Shown here one piece after another: positions 1,805-9,606 of a DNA stretch of 29,580 nt. Made by a program: the position numbers and the translations under genes. Each line of letters opens with the position of its first letter. Position 1 is the stretch's first letter. The stretch is from a virus. The notes beneath the pieces were generated by a model that saw nothing but the letters and a program-made list of their open reading frames with translations, was not told where the DNA came from and searched no databases. The stretch is taken from IMG/VR virus record IMGVR_UViG_3300030012_000605, positions 1 through 29,580 of that record, one strand, 5' to 3'.

Positions 1805-2209
1805 ATGTCGATTAGTACTGCAGCGTTTGACGATAGTGCGGATGGCTCTAGCAAAGCAACTTTTACACCAGATCGAAATCCAAATATTGGCGTTCAATAC
1901 GGAACGAATTATCAGGGGATTATTAAAAATCAAGCGATAGGTGGAGAATGTTACACTGTAGAAAGATATGGAAAGCGTAGATCTTGGACAATGACATTTA
2001 GTTTTTTAAATAGTACCGATCAAGCAAAGTTACAAGCGTTGATTGATTTCGCAGATGGAAGAAAGAATGAATTTTATTTTGCTGAAGATAATTTTGCAAG
2101 CTCAGGTGCTAATTCAGTAAAAGTAAGATTTGATCAAGATTCATTTTCTTTCGAAGAAGTAGCACAAGGTGCAACAAGTATTACGTTCAATATTATAGAA
2201 CAGCTGTAA
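1805..2209 (+). CDS. Minor tail / virion protein
   Basis: This 134-residue protein starts at an ATG behind a clear AGGAGA ribosome-binding site, 8 bases after the tail hub gene. It is a compact, aromatic, beta-rich sequence with the motif YGKRRSWTMTFSFL around residue 56 and FADGRKNEFYFAED around residue 83, a pattern seen in small phage tail proteins encoded after the hub. It is the last gene of the structural block: a stem-loop and the AT-rich junction follow. No catalytic motif is visible. The tail role is inferred from position and general resemblance. Confidence 0.55.
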   Translation: MSISTAAFDDSADGSSKATFTPDRNPNIGVQYGTNYQGIIKNQAIGGECYTVERYGKRRSWTMTFSFLNSTDQAKLQALIDFADGRKNEFYFAEDNFASSGANSVKVRFDQDSFSFEEVAQGATSITFNIIEQL

Positions 2210-2231
2210 ATTTCTCTCCTCCTCCCTCCTC

Positions 2232-2262
2232 AAGCCCCCTGCGATAATATCAAAGGGGGTTT
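2232..2262 (+). terminator. Stem-loop after the tail genes, terminator-like but without a U-tract
   Basis: AAGCCCCCT (2232-2240) pairs with AGGGGGTTT (2254-2262), giving 9 pairs including one G-U and five consecutive C-G pairs, around a 13-base loop. It lies 22 bases after the last tail gene, where late transcription should end. The bases that follow are A-rich rather than T-rich, so it is not a textbook intrinsic terminator. It may instead stabilise the 3' end of the late mRNA. Confidence 0.45.
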
Positions 2263-2481
2263 AGGTAAAAAAAGCCTCATAAAGCCCTTTAAAAACTACT
2301 TTCTAATATTTTTTAATATAATAATCGTTAAAAAAAAATTTAATTGTAAATGCTTTATTAGATAGCTTAAAAACGATTTAACCTTTTTTTTAAAAAAAAT
2401 AAAAAAAAACTATTTGATAATGGTAATTTATTATTAAATTTGGTTATGTTAGTTAATAAAAAAAATATCTTAGGAGGATAT
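2263..2481 (+). promoter_or_regulatory. AT-rich junction before the early genes, candidate promoter region and 5' leader
   Basis: No gene is visible here. The stretch holds long A- and T-tracts (2328-2337 TTAAAAAAAA and its complement near 2385-2395) and a perfect TATAAT at 2317-2322, but no convincing -35 box at the right distance. Its end is the leader of the first early gene: ATGTTAGTTAA at 2446-2456 and the Shine-Dalgarno AGGAGGATAT at 2472-2481. Both segments are perfectly complementary to one contiguous strand of the intergenic RNA at 3344-3364. The position between late and early modules favours a promoter, and an origin is also possible. Confidence 0.35.
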
Positions 2482-2703
2482 ATGAAACTTACAGAGAAAA
2501 TAAATAGACTGGTTACTTTAAAAGCAGACGTTGTACCAACTTCTTTATCTGTTACTAAAAACAAAGCTGAGATTGTTACAGATAATCCGTCTGATCACTT
2601 TAAGATCTTAAAAGTGTTTGGTGAAGCTACCACCTCTTTGGCTGGATATACCCTATCAAGCAAATTAAGACTTGACCAACAAGTAGTTATCGTAGAAAAA
2701 TAA
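2482..2703 (+). CDS. Small early protein of unknown function
   Basis: The 73-residue protein begins at the ATG placed 4 bases after a perfect AGGAGG; an in-frame ATG 42 bases earlier lacks such a site. It is the first gene after the late/early junction and so probably among the first transcribed. It has a basic N-terminus (MKLTEKINRLVTLKADV), no cysteines, no membrane segment and mixed alpha/beta character. I do not recognise the family. Its leader is complementary in two blocks to the intergenic RNA strand 3344-3364, so its translation may be regulated by that RNA. Confidence 0.7.
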   Translation: MKLTEKINRLVTLKADVVPTSLSVTKNKAEIVTDNPSDHFKILKVFGEATTSLAGYTLSSKLRLDQQVVIVEK

Positions 2704-2724
2704 AATTAGTTAAAGGAGAATAAA

Positions 2725-3090
2725 ATGAAAGATACAAAATATAATGGTTGGACAAACTACCAAACTTGGAACTTTAAAACTTGGATGGAAAATGATCAAA
2801 ATGATTATAGAAATATTTTATCCAAAGTTGAAAAAGCGTTAAAAGAGCTTAGTGAAGAAAAAGATACGAAAACAGTTTACGCTAATATTCCAGATCACTT
2901 ACAAAATTTAAAATACAGAAAAGCATCTATAGTAATCGAAAATTATGCTTGGGAATGGGTTGATAATGTAGTTAGCTCAAAAGCATCTTTTGTAAATGAT
3001 GTTTTGCGTTATGCTATAAATGGTATTAACTTTTACGAAATAGCTGAAGATATTGTAGACAGAGTTGAAGAAGAAATGGAGGTAGTATGA
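2725..3090 (+). CDS. NGWTN-family phage protein (DUF7249-like)
   Basis: The 121-residue protein opens with NGWTNYQTWNFKTWMEND at residues 7-24. This NGWTNxxTW signature belongs to a small-protein family widespread in phages and, from memory, filed as DUF7249. Near the C-terminus INFYEIAEDIVDRVEEE matches the family's usual ending. No biochemical role is established for it that I know of; members generally sit in early modules as here. The ribosome-binding site AAAGGAG lies in a 13-base segment (2706-2718) perfectly complementary to 3349-3361 of the intergenic RNA. The stop overlaps the next start (ATGA), implying translational coupling. Confidence 0.75.
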   Translation: MKDTKYNGWTNYQTWNFKTWMENDQNDYRNILSKVEKALKELSEEKDTKTVYANIPDHLQNLKYRKASIVIENYAWEWVDNVVSSKASFVNDVLRYAINGINFYEIAEDIVDRVEEEMEVV

Positions 3091-3272
3091 ACCCATATTT
3101 ATTTTGGTTTATTGTAGCAATATTTGTTTTAATTTTACAGATGATAAACAAGATCGTGCAATACAAAACATCTGCAAACTTTTGGAAACAAACCGCTTTT
3201 CTAGCAACTGAAAAATATAATGAGTTGCTTGTAAAAAAGTCTATAAATAAAGCCATAGAAAGATTAAATTAA
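3087..3272 (+). CDS. Small single-span membrane protein
   Basis: The 61-residue protein starts inside the previous stop (ATGA), so it is translationally coupled. Residues 3-24 (PYLFWFIVAIFVLILQMINKIV) form one hydrophobic membrane segment, followed by a basic cytoplasmic-type tail with several Lys and Asn residues. No enzyme motif is present. It ends two bases before the structured RNA element. Function is unknown; early small membrane proteins of phages often interfere with host processes, but nothing here shows that specifically. Confidence 0.65.
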   Translation: MNPYLFWFIVAIFVLILQMINKIVQYKTSANFWKQTAFLATEKYNELLVKKSINKAIERLN

Positions 3273-3274
3273 CA

Positions 3275-3391
3275 ATGTTAGGGGAGGATATAAAAATAAC
3301 TTTGTGGGGGCAGGCATCCCTGAGCATCTTCCTGTGTATGCTCATATCCTCCTTTAACTAACATAATGCCCCCACTTTTTTTAAAGGAGGT
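3275..3391 (+). ncRNA. Structured intergenic RNA with crossing helices that can also mask the next ribosome-binding site
   Basis: Three helices are directly visible. Helix A pairs 3277-3291 with 3344-3358: 15 continuous pairs including two G-U. Helix B pairs GTGGGGGCA (3304-3312) with TGCCCCCAC (3367-3375): 9 perfect pairs, followed by seven T's. Hairpin C pairs GAGCAT (3322-3327) with ATGCTC (3338-3343) and abuts helix A. A and B cross, so they form a pseudoknot or exclude each other. The 3' strand of A (3348-3357) can alternatively pair over 10 bases with TTAAAGGAGG (3381-3390), the ribosome-binding site of the gene at 3395. This fits a riboswitch-like attenuator or a small regulatory RNA. 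I do not recognise a named family. Confidence 0.6.
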
Positions 3392-3394
3392 AGA

Positions 3395-3538
3395 ATGAAA
3401 ATAATAAAAGAAAAAAATGGATCAGTCACTATTAGATTGGACAGACCCAAAGGCATGAAAGAGCAAAAATTTTTGAATATTGCAGCCAAGTTAGAAAAAT
3501 TATTGGATCAACTTGGGGGTAAAGTTCGTGTCATCTAA
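3395..3538 (+). CDS. Small basic protein of unknown function
   Basis: A 47-residue protein starts at an ATG 4 bases after the strong site AAAGGAGG. It begins MKIIKEKNGSVTIRLDRPKG, beta-like, and ends in a helix with regularly spaced leucines (LEKLLDQLGGKVRVI). No cysteine or membrane segment is seen. It is the first gene after the structured RNA, and its ribosome-binding site is the one that RNA can sequester. Its end overlaps the next gene by 11 bases. The good ribosome-binding site and the fit to the gene chain support that it is real. Confidence 0.65.
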   Translation: MKIIKEKNGSVTIRLDRPKGMKEQKFLNIAAKLEKLLDQLGGKVRVI

Positions 3539-6620: not shown

Positions 6621-6838
6621 TGATTGAACAAGAAACATTATTTGATATGTCACCAGATGAGAACAAAGAAATGATAGAAGATACTGAAATAGAGTGGTTA
6701 ATTTTATACTTTAAAGATAATAAAAAGAAAAAATTAACTTTGAATATTGAAAAGCTATTAAGCGTTTATGATTTAGATAATCACTCAGATCTTGTTTATA
6801 AATTAGTAGAGGAAAAAATTGAAAAAATTAGTAGCTGA
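6620..6838 (+). CDS. Small acidic protein with N-terminal sliding-clamp-type motif
   Basis: The start overlaps the SSB-like gene stop (TAATG). The 72-residue, strongly acidic protein opens MIEQETLFDMS. QETLF at residues 4-8 fits the bacterial clamp-binding pentapeptide (Gln at 1, Leu at 4, Phe at 5), and nearly the same sequence closes both glycosyltransferases downstream. The coding DNA for it (6629-6649) is nearly identical to 9268-9288. The rest is helical with a KKKK patch. It may tether or compete for the host clamp; this is inferred. Confidence 0.55.
   Translation: MIEQETLFDMSPDENKEMIEDTEIEWLILYFKDNKKKKLTLNIEKLLSVYDLDNHSDLVYKLVEEKIEKISS
6629..6649 (+). repeat. Direct repeat copy 1 bounding the modification cassette
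   Basis: This copy reads CAAGAAACATTATTT followed by GATATG. It matches 9268-9288 at 20 of 21 positions, and its first 15 bases match 8483-8497 exactly. It encodes QETLFDM near the start of the 72-residue protein, while the other copies encode the ends of the two glycosyltransferases. It may be selected as a protein motif, may mark duplication or insertion of the cassette, or both. Confidence 0.55.
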
Positions 6839-7724
6839 ATATTATCTTACAGAAAAAGAAACTGAAAGATTGCAAGGCACTTTTATAAACGAAAGTCATT
6901 ACAATCAAATTATTGATTACGATTGCGATTGTTACACTAGCAATGGTCAACCGCTTTTCTTTTTTAGAAAAAATTATATTGATTATAATGTACTTGAAGA
7001 TGCTTATGAGGCTATGCATACAGCAGCTACCCCCACAAATAACAGAGGTGCTGCAAGTGGCGGTGAAAGAAGAAATGCTATTTTATTAAGCGGTAAAAAA
7101 AGCAAACAAGATTATATCTTTGACCCAGAAACAAATAAAAGAAAAAATATTTTAAGCGGTATTGCTGGATATTTTGACAGATCTGCTCATTATGATTTTT
7201 GCAGAACAACTGCTTTTAACAAAAATAATTTAGATAAATTCGAAAAGGCAATGCCACTTATAAGAACTGTTGATAGAGGGTTTAAAGAATTAGTTCCTGA
7301 TAGATACAAAAGGCAACTAGCAATGGCAAAAGGAACGCATCCTAATTATGTAATAAAAGATACAGCATTTACAACAATCACTGTAAACAAAGATTTTAGA
7401 ACCGCTATTCATACTGACGATGGTGATTACAAATATGGTTTCGGTAACCTAGTTGCGTATTGTAAAGATATTGAACCCACTTATTTTGTTATGCCTAGAT
7501 TTAAAGTAGCTATCGATTTAAGAAATTGCGATCTGCTTTTAGCAGACGTTCATCAATATCATGGAAACTCACCTATAATAAAAAAATCTGAAGATGCTGT
7601 AAGGCTTTCTTTTGTAATGTATTATAGGGAAAAAATGATCAGATGTATGAGCCCAAGTAAAGAATTAAAAAGAATACAAATGAATCAAAGGAGGGTATCA
7701 ATGGAGCATGCAGGATTGATATGA
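6819..7724 (+). CDS. TET/JBP-family Fe(II)/2-oxoglutarate DNA base dioxygenase
   Basis: This enzyme is expected to hydroxylate the methyl group of thymine or 5-methylcytosine in DNA, using Fe(II), oxygen and 2-oxoglutarate. In the 301-residue product the iron triad is His198, Asp200 (HTD) and His248 (in QYHGN), with Arg262 in VRLSFVMYYREKM as the 2-oxoglutarate contact. The H-x-D to H spacing and the RxSxVxYYRExM ending are characteristic of TET/JBP enzymes, as is the NRGAASG element at 75-81. The TTG start follows an AGAGG site and overlaps the previous gene. The stop overlaps the glycosyltransferase start (ATGA). No C5-methyltransferase was found in the genome, so thymine or host-methylated cytosine is the likely substrate. 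Confidence 0.8.
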   Translation: MKKLVAEYYLTEKETERLQGTFINESHYNQIIDYDCDCYTSNGQPLFFFRKNYIDYNVLEDAYEAMHTAATPTNNRGAASGGERRNAILLSGKKSKQDYIFDPETNKRKNILSGIAGYFDRSAHYDFCRTTAFNKNNLDKFEKAMPLIRTVDRGFKELVPDRYKRQLAMAKGTHPNYVIKDTAFTTITVNKDFRTAIHTDDGDYKYGFGNLVAYCKDIEPTYFVMPRFKVAIDLRNCDLLLADVHQYHGNSPIIKKSEDAVRLSFVMYYREKMIRCMSPSKELKRIQMNQRRVSMEHAGLI

Positions 7725-8503
7725 ATTATAAAATCGCTATCCCATCATACAAAAGAGAACAAACAATAAAAAATAAAACATTAAAACTTTTAGAATCATT
7801 TAAAATAGATCCTAAAAAAATTACTATTTTTGTTGCAGATTCTGATGAATTATATAAATATAAAAAATCATTAGAAAATACTCCGTATGAGGAAAATATT
7901 GTTCAAGGCGTTCTTACTATCGGTGAGCAAAGAAACTTTATTGAAGGGTATTATAATGAGGGTGAAAAGGTAATGATGTTTGATGACGACATTACTGGAA
8001 TTAAAAAAAAGAAAGATCAAGATTTAATTGACATTTTAGATCTTGAAAAAGAAATTATTTTTCGTGGTTTTAATGAAGCTGAAAAATTAGGTTCAAAATG
8101 TTTCGGAATATATGCAGCTGCTAATGCTTATTTTATGAAAGATCGTGTCTACTCAAAACTTTGTTACATTATAGCATCTATGTTTGGTGTAATTATAGAA
8201 AAAAATAATTTTTTAAAAAGAGTTACGAATCATGGTGAAGATTACGAATACAGCATAAGACAATATATTCATAATGGAGTTTTATGCAGATTAGATAATT
8301 ATACTGTCATAAGCAATTATTATAAAGAAGAAGGTGGATTGCAGGCTTTTAGAACTAAAGATTATGTAAGAGAATCTATTGAAAAAATACAAGATATGTT
8401 CCCAGAATATTGTAAAATGTATATAAGAAAGTCAACTGGATTTGCAGAGTTAAGGTTGAAAGATAATGCAGGCAATAAAAATCAAGAAACATTATTTTCA
8501 TGA
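7721..8503 (+). CDS. TET-associated glycosyltransferase (TAGT-like), copy 1
   Basis: This GT-A-type protein of 260 residues starts YKIAIPSYKR, has the metal/nucleotide-sugar acidic motif FDDD at 87-90, and GEDYEYSIR at 172-180 as a likely catalytic acidic region, followed by EGGLQAF. These features and adjacency to a TET/JBP enzyme match the glycosyltransferases described with such dioxygenases, which put sugar on hydroxymethylated bases in DNA. It is translationally coupled on both sides by ATGA overlaps. The C-terminal residues QETLF (255-259) fit a sliding-clamp binding peptide. The sugar donor cannot be told from sequence. Confidence 0.75.
   Translation: MNYKIAIPSYKREQTIKNKTLKLLESFKIDPKKITIFVADSDELYKYKKSLENTPYEENIVQGVLTIGEQRNFIEGYYNEGEKVMMFDDDITGIKKKKDQDLIDILDLEKEIIFRGFNEAEKLGSKCFGIYAAANAYFMKDRVYSKLCYIIASMFGVIIEKNNFLKRVTNHGEDYEYSIRQYIHNGVLCRLDNYTVISNYYKEEGGLQAFRTKDYVRESIEKIQDMFPEYCKMYIRKSTGFAELRLKDNAGNKNQETLFS
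8483..8497 (+). repeat. Direct repeat copy 2 (15 bases)
   Basis: CAAGAAACATTATTT at the end of the first glycosyltransferase gene is identical to the first 15 bases of the copy at 6629 and differs at one position from the copy at 9268. It encodes the QETLF ending. The following bases diverge. Confidence 0.5.
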
Positions 8504-9294
8504 TTGATTATAAAATAGCTATTCCAACTTACAAAAGAAGTGATCTGATTGAGGAATATTGTTTCAAACATCTAAAAGAATCCAATATTAATTTTTCTAA
8601 AATACATTTATTTATACAAAGCAAAAAAGATATGGATCTTTATCGCAAATATGAAAAAAAATATTCTTTAAAATTAATTTATTGTTCTACAAAAAATATA
8701 AATGAAACAAGAAATTTTATAAGAAATTATTTTAAAGAAAATGATTTTATTGTATCTATTGACGACACTTTTAATGGAATTAATAAATTGAATAATGATA
8801 AATTAGAAAAATTTATTGATATTGATGGCTTATGTAAAGATGCCTATAAACAAATGATCAAAAATAATACTAAATTATTTGGTATAAATATGGTGAGCAA
8901 CCCTTTTTTTATGAAGGATAAAATAAGCACAAGAAATGGTGCAATATCAGCTAAATTTTATGGATACATAAACGATAAAGATAAATTTTTACAACCGATA
9001 GCTCCTACTGGATTGGTTGAGGATATAGAACTTGCAATTAGACATTATATAAAATTTGGAAAAATTGTTAGATATATGGGACATACTTTTAATAATGTTA
9101 AATATTTTGAAATTGAAGGAGGAATACAAGCAAGAATGTCAAAAGAAGAAAGAAGAAAACTTAATGATTTAGGAAATAAAGAATTATGTAAAATGTTTCC
9201 AGATTATGTAGTTTTGAAAAAAAATGGTTTTGGGCTTAGGCTCAAACAAAAATATATTAATAAAAATCAAAAAACATTATTTGATATGATATAA
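8500..9294 (+). CDS. TET-associated glycosyltransferase (TAGT-like), copy 2
   Basis: A 264-residue paralogue of the gene before it, sharing YKIAIPxYKR, RNFI, DDxxxGI, FxMKD, ED.E..IR.YI, EGGxQA and the NKNQxTLF ending, yet clearly diverged in between. The acidic motif is IDDT (87-90) instead of FDDD, so metal or donor use may differ, while VED (173-175) is kept. It could act on a different site, add a second sugar to the first, or be a regulatory partner. The C-terminus carries QKTLF (257-261), again fitting the clamp-binding pentapeptide. The start overlaps the previous stop. Confidence 0.72.
   Translation: MIDYKIAIPTYKRSDLIEEYCFKHLKESNINFSKIHLFIQSKKDMDLYRKYEKKYSLKLIYCSTKNINETRNFIRNYFKENDFIVSIDDTFNGINKLNNDKLEKFIDIDGLCKDAYKQMIKNNTKLFGINMVSNPFFMKDKISTRNGAISAKFYGYINDKDKFLQPIAPTGLVEDIELAIRHYIKFGKIVRYMGHTFNNVKYFEIEGGIQARMSKEERRKLNDLGNKELCKMFPDYVVLKKNGFGLRLKQKYINKNQKTLFDMI
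9268..9288 (+). repeat. Direct repeat copy 3 closing the modification cassette
   Basis: This copy matches 6629-6649 except for one A/G difference and encodes the QKTLFDM ending of the second glycosyltransferase. Together the outer copies frame the dioxygenase and both glycosyltransferases. Confidence 0.55.
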
Positions 9295-9303
9295 AAAAAT
9301 AGC

Positions 9304-9606
9304 ATGCCAGAACCAAGCCAACACCCCTGTCCGATGTGCGGAAAGTCGGATGAAGATGAGCAAGAATATTATATACAAGACAGAGCACAGAGAGCCATAG
9401 ACAACCTTAAATTTTTAAATTTAGGTTTTACCCTTTCGCATATGATGACCGATCTTGAAAGGGCTGTATTTTTTCATAGACAAGTAAGAAAAGAAAAATT
9501 CAAAGACATCGCTTTAATGCTAAATAAATCTGAATCTACTGTTAAAATGGCGTGGAAACGCTGTAAATCACGTGGCGACAGAGTTTTAGCAGAATCATTA
9601 TATTAA
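9304..9606 (+). CDS. Helix-turn-helix regulator, sigma region 4-like, candidate late-gene activator
   Basis: The 100-residue protein has an N-terminal CPMC (residues 9-12) and a C-terminal HTH, with LERAVFFHRQVRKEKFKDIALMLNK followed by the recognition helix SESTVKMAWKRCKSRG (about 76-91). This resembles region 4 of sigma factors and LuxR-type HTHs. It lies between the early/modification genes and the packaging genes, where phages usually place the switch to late transcription. No Shine-Dalgarno is evident before the ATG. The regulatory role is inferred. Confidence 0.6.
   Translation: MPEPSQHPCPMCGKSDEDEQEYYIQDRAQRAIDNLKFLNLGFTLSHMMTDLERAVFFHRQVRKEKFKDIALMLNKSESTVKMAWKRCKSRGDRVLAESLY

Follow-up and report, generated by a model that had tools for sequence, protein, structure and literature searches.

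The window, i.e., the whole stretch of DNA that was analysed, comprises the 29,580 bases of IMG/VR virus record IMGVR_UViG_3300030012_000605 and belongs to an AT-rich tailed phage of marine origin. The early genes begin at 2482, after the late gene g1805, whose end is at 2209; the product of the first early gene (73 aa) had no match in Pfam or PHROG. A folded RNA element lies downstream, directly behind a small membrane-protein gene that served as a synteny marker (Table 1). Right after the stop codon of g1805 and 5' of a GC-rich hairpin, a pyrimidine tract (TTTCTCTCCTCCTCCCTCCTC, 2211-2232) was noticed, which is itself anti-Shine-Dalgarno-rich and is present in many relatives (L048, L052, L055, L056, L069, L071, L043, L086). 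Further downstream, the stretch 6819-9294 encodes a TET/JBP-type oxygenase (PF12851, E 9e-18) and, after it, a pair of TET-associated glycosyltransferase-like proteins (PF20691; E 2e-12 for one and 4e-6, just under the cut-off, for the other), likely constituting a DNA base hypermodification set as judged from these matches. The adjacent small protein (9304-9606; ~55% identity in relatives) weakly resembles sigma-70 region 4 (PF08281, below the cut-off) and is possibly a regulator of later transcription.

Table 1. Features of the early region of the window that bear on the RNA element
Feature	Position	Strand	Basis
Target block 1, leader of gene 2482, ATGTTAGTTAA	2446..2456	+	Exact match, complementary to 3354-3364
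Target block 2, Shine-Dalgarno region of gene 2482, AGGAGGATAT	2472..2481	+	Exact match, complementary to 3344-3353
First early gene; main predicted target	2482..2703	+	ORF, 73 aa
Candidate second target, ribosome-binding site of gene 2725, TTAGTTAAAGGAG	2706..2718	+	Complementary to 3349-3361
Small membrane-protein gene; synteny marker	3087..3272	+	Stop codon immediately 5' of the element
5' arm P0a, mimics the target leader, can pair with 3344-3361 and mask the strand	3275..3291	+	Predicted pairing
Outer stem P1, 5' side, GTGGGGGCA	3304..3312	+	Fold; P1 covariation in relatives
Inner hairpin P2	3321..3344	+	Fold
Antisense (target-binding) strand in the loop closed by P1	3344..3364	+	Unpaired probabilities
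Outer stem P1, 3' side, TGCCCCCAC	3367..3375	+	Fold
Run of seven T after P1	3376..3382	+	Sequence
Ribosome-binding site of the next gene (3395)	3381..3390	+	10 nt complementary to the antisense strand

Positions 3304-3375 were predicted to fold into the outer stem P1 and the inner hairpin P2, with the antisense strand in the loop (z = -3.5 vs. shuffles). The mean unpaired probability of 3344-3364 was 0.84 when folded as 3303-3383 and 0.26 as 3268-3383; in the predicted fold of the longer transcript the strand is mostly paired, being captured by the 5' arm (3275-3291). This arm is absent in relative L040 and in the second phage group described below. The T-run after P1 possibly marks the 3' end of the RNA, and a transcript ending after 3375, as predicted in an earlier note on this DNA, would fit it; T-runs at this place also occur in L043, L063, and L349, and most relatives are without one. 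No canonical intrinsic terminator was found in 2200-3500, and P1 is unlike one in enclosing a 54-nt loop, though the window has the T-run. Promoter scanning returned nothing above the chance number at the window leader or 5' of the element. Against Rfam, the loci of the window and 11 relatives were without a match at the gathering score, and a permissive scan gave weak, chance-like matches only.

The earlier note had described the 21 bases 3344-3364 as fully complementary to two blocks of the leader of gene 2482, and 3349-3361 as complementary over 13 nt to the ribosome-binding site of gene 2725. Sequence reading and an exact-match search confirmed the former without a mismatch, the reverse complements of 3354-3364 (11 nt, at 2446-2456) and 3344-3353 (10 nt, at 2472-2481) each occurring once in the window; the exact-match search likewise confirmed the latter, the 13-mer having its single occurrence at 2706-2718. 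Blocks 1 and 2 jointly form a duplex of -27.4 kcal/mol with the strand. For a duplex scan, a 48-base segment was slid over both strands of all 29,580 bases against the strand; apart from the strand itself (-35.1 kcal/mol), the leader 2444-2482 was the top partner (-24.9), followed by the element's own 5' arm (3276-3292, -22.0), the ribosome-binding site at 2705-2719 (-17.9), and the background from -16.9 downward. Among 49 hand-listed gene leaders, those of 2482 and 2725 ranked first and second as partners of the strand, and the strands of 11 relatives with the same Shine-Dalgarno core reached means of only -16.5 and -9.6 kcal/mol on these two leaders. The claim that the matches exceed what Shine-Dalgarno sequences explain held for gene 2482, where 0 of 5000 shuffles that kept the Shine-Dalgarno reached -27.4 kcal/mol, a result far beyond a Shine-Dalgarno effect. 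It held less well for gene 2725: as many as 86 of 5000 such shuffles reached -17.9 kcal/mol, so this match alone is modest and as a real target suggestive. Complementarity extends further, to the strand's own upstream arm (3275-3291) and to 10 nt of the ribosome-binding site at 3381-3390, so gene 3395 may be a further target.

Relatives were collected from IMG/VR by scans with the portal, g1805, the HNH gene, and the small membrane protein; no close relatives were found by exact 20-mer, by DNA similarity in isolated phages, or by the 3742 protein in viral contigs. The first weak DNA matches (L003, L038) looked like chance and were set aside. A pattern scan with the antisense strand gave no new members in viral_contigs and, in genome_contigs, none that looked real on a structure check among the matches listed. 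A similar element was found 3' of the membrane-protein gene in 24 other IMG/VR records. In a subfamily of seven distinct sequences, 7 of 12 P1 pairs were changed on both sides and 99.3% of cells pair, with a covariation score that 0 of 500 shuffles reached; the RNA structure is thus conserved. A covariance model built from this subfamily recovered L349, L063, and L043, none of which had been used to build it. The same model missed the window, L015, L020, L040, and the second phage group, so that membership of the four records rests on position, layout, and pairing, and that of the second group on position and layout. It found nothing in isolated Vibrio and Rhodobacteraceae phages with NinG relatives. 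An element variant was seen in L346 (~1850-1950), where the antisense stretch TTTACCTCC lies inside the inner hairpin and the 5' arm is changed to GGAGGTAAA, the two forming a compensatory pair.

Complementarity to the early leader, whose loss in relatives the earlier note had named as counting against a regulatory pairing, was kept in two-block form in 13 of 15 records, a count that includes the window. Scans of 15 relatives, each with its own strand, put the first early gene's leader at the head of the plus-strand partners in 11 cases, a different early leader in two (L043, L063), and neither in two (L081, and L040, for which the strand used was too short). Own element against own leader gave a mean of -23.5 kcal/mol over 15 records including the window vs. 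-19.7 kcal/mol for permuted pairs, with 1 of 20,000 permutations as good, a figure that is no clean probability since the records are related and the leaders of L043 and L063 were picked after the scan. Individually, the window leader pairs at -27.4 kcal/mol with its own strand vs. -13.6 to -18.8 with those of other records, and the L040 leader at -27.5 vs. -8.1 to -13.7; the L040 pairing was equalled by 0 of 5000 Shine-Dalgarno-preserving shuffles. The L040 strand was taken at greater length than the rest and pairs strongly with leaders of other records too (down to -27.4); the 5' arm of L040 no longer pairs (-4.4) while the leader pairing is kept. Pairing was confined to a single block in L049 and L050, and the leader matches of L346 and L349 were weaker, not above background. 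Arm pairing was weaker than leader pairing in the records compared, nearly equal in L060 (leader -22.5 vs. arm -22.3).

The changes are matched on both sides of the duplex. In block 1, the window, L040, and the majority each carry a distinct leader and a matching element (leader/element ATGTTAGTTAA/TTAACTAACAT, ATGACGATTAAC/GTTAATCGTCAA, and ATGATGATTAAC/GTTAATCATCAT), i.e., the leader pairing covaries, with both partners changed in the window and L040. The equivalent of block 1 in most relatives is ATGATGATTAA(C), and it begins in most of them with an ATG in frame with the downstream start. In L048, the closest relative of the window, the leader of the 2482 homologue retains GTTAGTTAA and AGGAGGATAT with the upstream ATG gone, which argues that block 1 is not maintained merely as a start codon; this leader would pair with the window strand at -22.1 kcal/mol. 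A 2725-type leader stands before a different gene in L048, and the genes behind the leaders, other than the 2482 homologue of L048, are mostly unrelated small ORFs, so it is the leader that is conserved and not the gene. By eye, promoter-like hexamers stand just 5' of block 1 in several relatives (e.g., TTGACA and TAATAT before both L063 leaders), an arrangement in which the early message would begin with block 1.

An ab initio search for comparable elements, in which the best 40 of 64 candidates were inspected, brought up a second, AT-rich phage group (group 2) besides the elements already known from the window's group; the other inspected candidates, some with stronger energies, looked GC-rich or unrelated and were judged by eye to be chance. 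The analogous element, present in 14 group 2 records, has a strand such as TTCCTTTGTTTAATTAACAT enclosed by a stem of 12-13 base pairs and lies right after a stop codon; its P1, with one pair changed on both sides, varies too little to prove the structure independently. A promoter regex applied to six group 2 contigs yielded 16 promoter-linked starts on both strands. Of the corresponding leaders, 14 match the RNA of their own contig with energies of -16.5 to -26.3 kcal/mol, and none of the 14 was equalled by more than 5 of 1000 Shine-Dalgarno-preserving shuffles. Two leaders on the diverged contig G033 gave -15.0 and -14.0 kcal/mol (22 and 19 of 1000 shuffles as good). The pairing forms one nearly continuous block. 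Since 4 of the 14 matching leaders lie on the strand opposite the RNA gene, i.e., on divergent transcripts, pairing in group 2 must be in trans. A diverged group 2 element was also seen in L106 (4226-4304), where the strand matches the ribosome-binding site of the directly following gene over 12 bp; by eye, the first residues of that gene's product are DNA methyltransferase-like. The complementarity, its conservation and covariation, the structure, and the multi-promoter, opposite-strand targets of group 2 were all computed directly.

Taken together, the element is probably a phage antisense RNA that represses early translation, c4-like in its action and no member of the c4 family. The earlier note had considered either a small RNA or a long-range mRNA pairing that shuts off early translation; the conserved two-block pairing and the compensatory changes support that interpretation better than one genome could, as a prediction from sequence. 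For the second of these alternatives, the element would fold back onto the 5' leader inside one polycistronic early mRNA without a free small RNA. In the window and most relatives, the element lies ~0.5-2.3 kb from the target leader on the same strand, so that one operon could plausibly hold both, and a T-run after P1 is missing in most relatives; but the group 2 partners include opposite-strand leaders and leaders behind other promoters several kb off, and L063 has two promoter-linked partners, which makes pairing within a single mRNA rather unlikely. A small RNA is favoured by the fact that in group 2 the strand has matches in leaders belonging to several distinct early promoters, including opposite-strand ones. 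Targets in trans on separate transcripts are thereby predicted for group 2; the window's own leader and element share a strand.

A switch acting locally, in which the strand pairs with its 5' arm or with the ribosome-binding site of gene 3395 and so controls 3395, the upstream matches being shared Shine-Dalgarno sequence, draws on arm pairing of -14 to -22 kcal/mol in 14 of 16 elements and pairing to the next gene's ribosome-binding site of -10 to -17.6 in 15 of 16. L040, however, has no arm and yet a very strong leader pairing, block 1 lies apart from the Shine-Dalgarno and covaries, the leader pairing withstands Shine-Dalgarno-preserving shuffles, and the partners in group 2 are remote leaders. 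Control of 3395 was dropped as the main reading after the scan of the relatives' leaders and the comparison of own with permuted pairs, and we regard it as quite unlikely. An ORF that starts at an ATG just 3' of the upstream stop and crosses the element towards the next gene, 37-44 codons long in 14 of 16 records, could instead encode a short peptide or a leader-peptide attenuator. This ORF does not fit an antisense RNA. Nevertheless, it stops after 28 codons in the window (3275-3361 region), L063 has none of at least 35 codons, L078 and L086 carry single-base indels in it relative to their neighbours, the group 2 elements have no counterpart ATG, and P1 covaries as RNA, so that a peptide function appears highly unlikely. 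Pure chance, helped by an AT-rich genome and by common Shine-Dalgarno sequences, is a barely credible source of the complementarity: there is a Shine-Dalgarno in every leader and the 2725 match alone is within its reach, but the rank of the 2482 leader as top partner with 0 of 5000 shuffles as good, the own-vs.-permuted pairing, the shuffles of the group 2 leaders, and the covariation of block 1 in relatives speak against it.

For the preferred antisense RNA, the following mode of action is proposed. P1 would keep a strand of 17-21 nt single-stranded within its loop, and this strand would pair with a leader sequence common to early transcripts. Within the window's group it would bind two blocks, at the leader start and over the Shine-Dalgarno, with the leader bases between them (15 in the window) looped out. 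That the RNA exists as a separate species, and its repression, timing, and processing, we infer. As the pairing covers the Shine-Dalgarno and start region, it would, by the precedent of known antisense RNAs, hide the ribosome-binding site and thereby repress early translation. Since the RNA itself belongs to the early operon, its role would probably be negative feedback or timing. In the window's group, the leader-mimicking 5' arm could mask the strand and hold the RNA inactive, and activation may need a cut in the AU-rich linker 3292-3303. More tentatively, and with somewhat less than even confidence, one such RNA, made from the early operon, might act as a general early off-switch: early promoters would place a common leader tag at the 5' ends of their messages, and a single loop of the RNA would read this tag in trans and shut down translation of all early genes, whatever genes follow; tag and RNA would coevolve, each phage lineage thus having its own matching pair.

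The usual account of early-gene shut-off in phages invokes proteins, promoters, and RNA decay. If the proposal is true, phages that look virulent would possess an RNA-only route for early shut-off, and a new early gene could join the programme by landing behind the tag; the predictions are exact to the base pair. No description of such an RNA was found in open-licence PubMed Central full texts.

Among known systems, the c4 RNA of phages P1 and P7 would by analogy be the nearest. In passages of PMC12197685 and PMC8198154, c4 RNA (Rfam RF01695) is described as structured, as blocking translation through complementary sequences, probably located in loops, that attach around the ribosome-binding site, and as sharing an operon with its target. 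Similarly, loop sequences of the present element are, by computation, complementary to the ribosome-binding region of the target. The c4 model RF01695 (gathering score 45 bits) matched 0 of 15 records at E ≤ 1. Unlike c4, which serves temperate-phage immunity by repressing one antirepressor operon, the partners here are leaders of unrelated small early ORFs; 15 records, possibly fragmentary, yielded no PF00589 integrase, so that timing is a more probable role than c4-like immunity. The sar RNA of phage P22, portrayed in a passage of PMC12197685 as a small antisense RNA whose pairing with an mRNA prevents the initiation of translation, is likewise a small phage antisense RNA acting on mRNA, but has one antirepressor target, whereas here a shared leader sequence would provide several. 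OOP RNA of lambda, a cis antisense to cII that promotes RNase III decay (covered in part of PMC12197685), is also a phage antisense RNA on phage mRNA. It differs in acting in cis, while the RNA proposed here is encoded elsewhere and would pair over ~20 nt. As for hok, the fbi and tac elements of its mRNA pair intramolecularly, the downstream element with the 5' region, silencing translation. The present element resembles them in being a downstream element directed at a 5' region and differs from hok in that group 2 requires pairing in trans.
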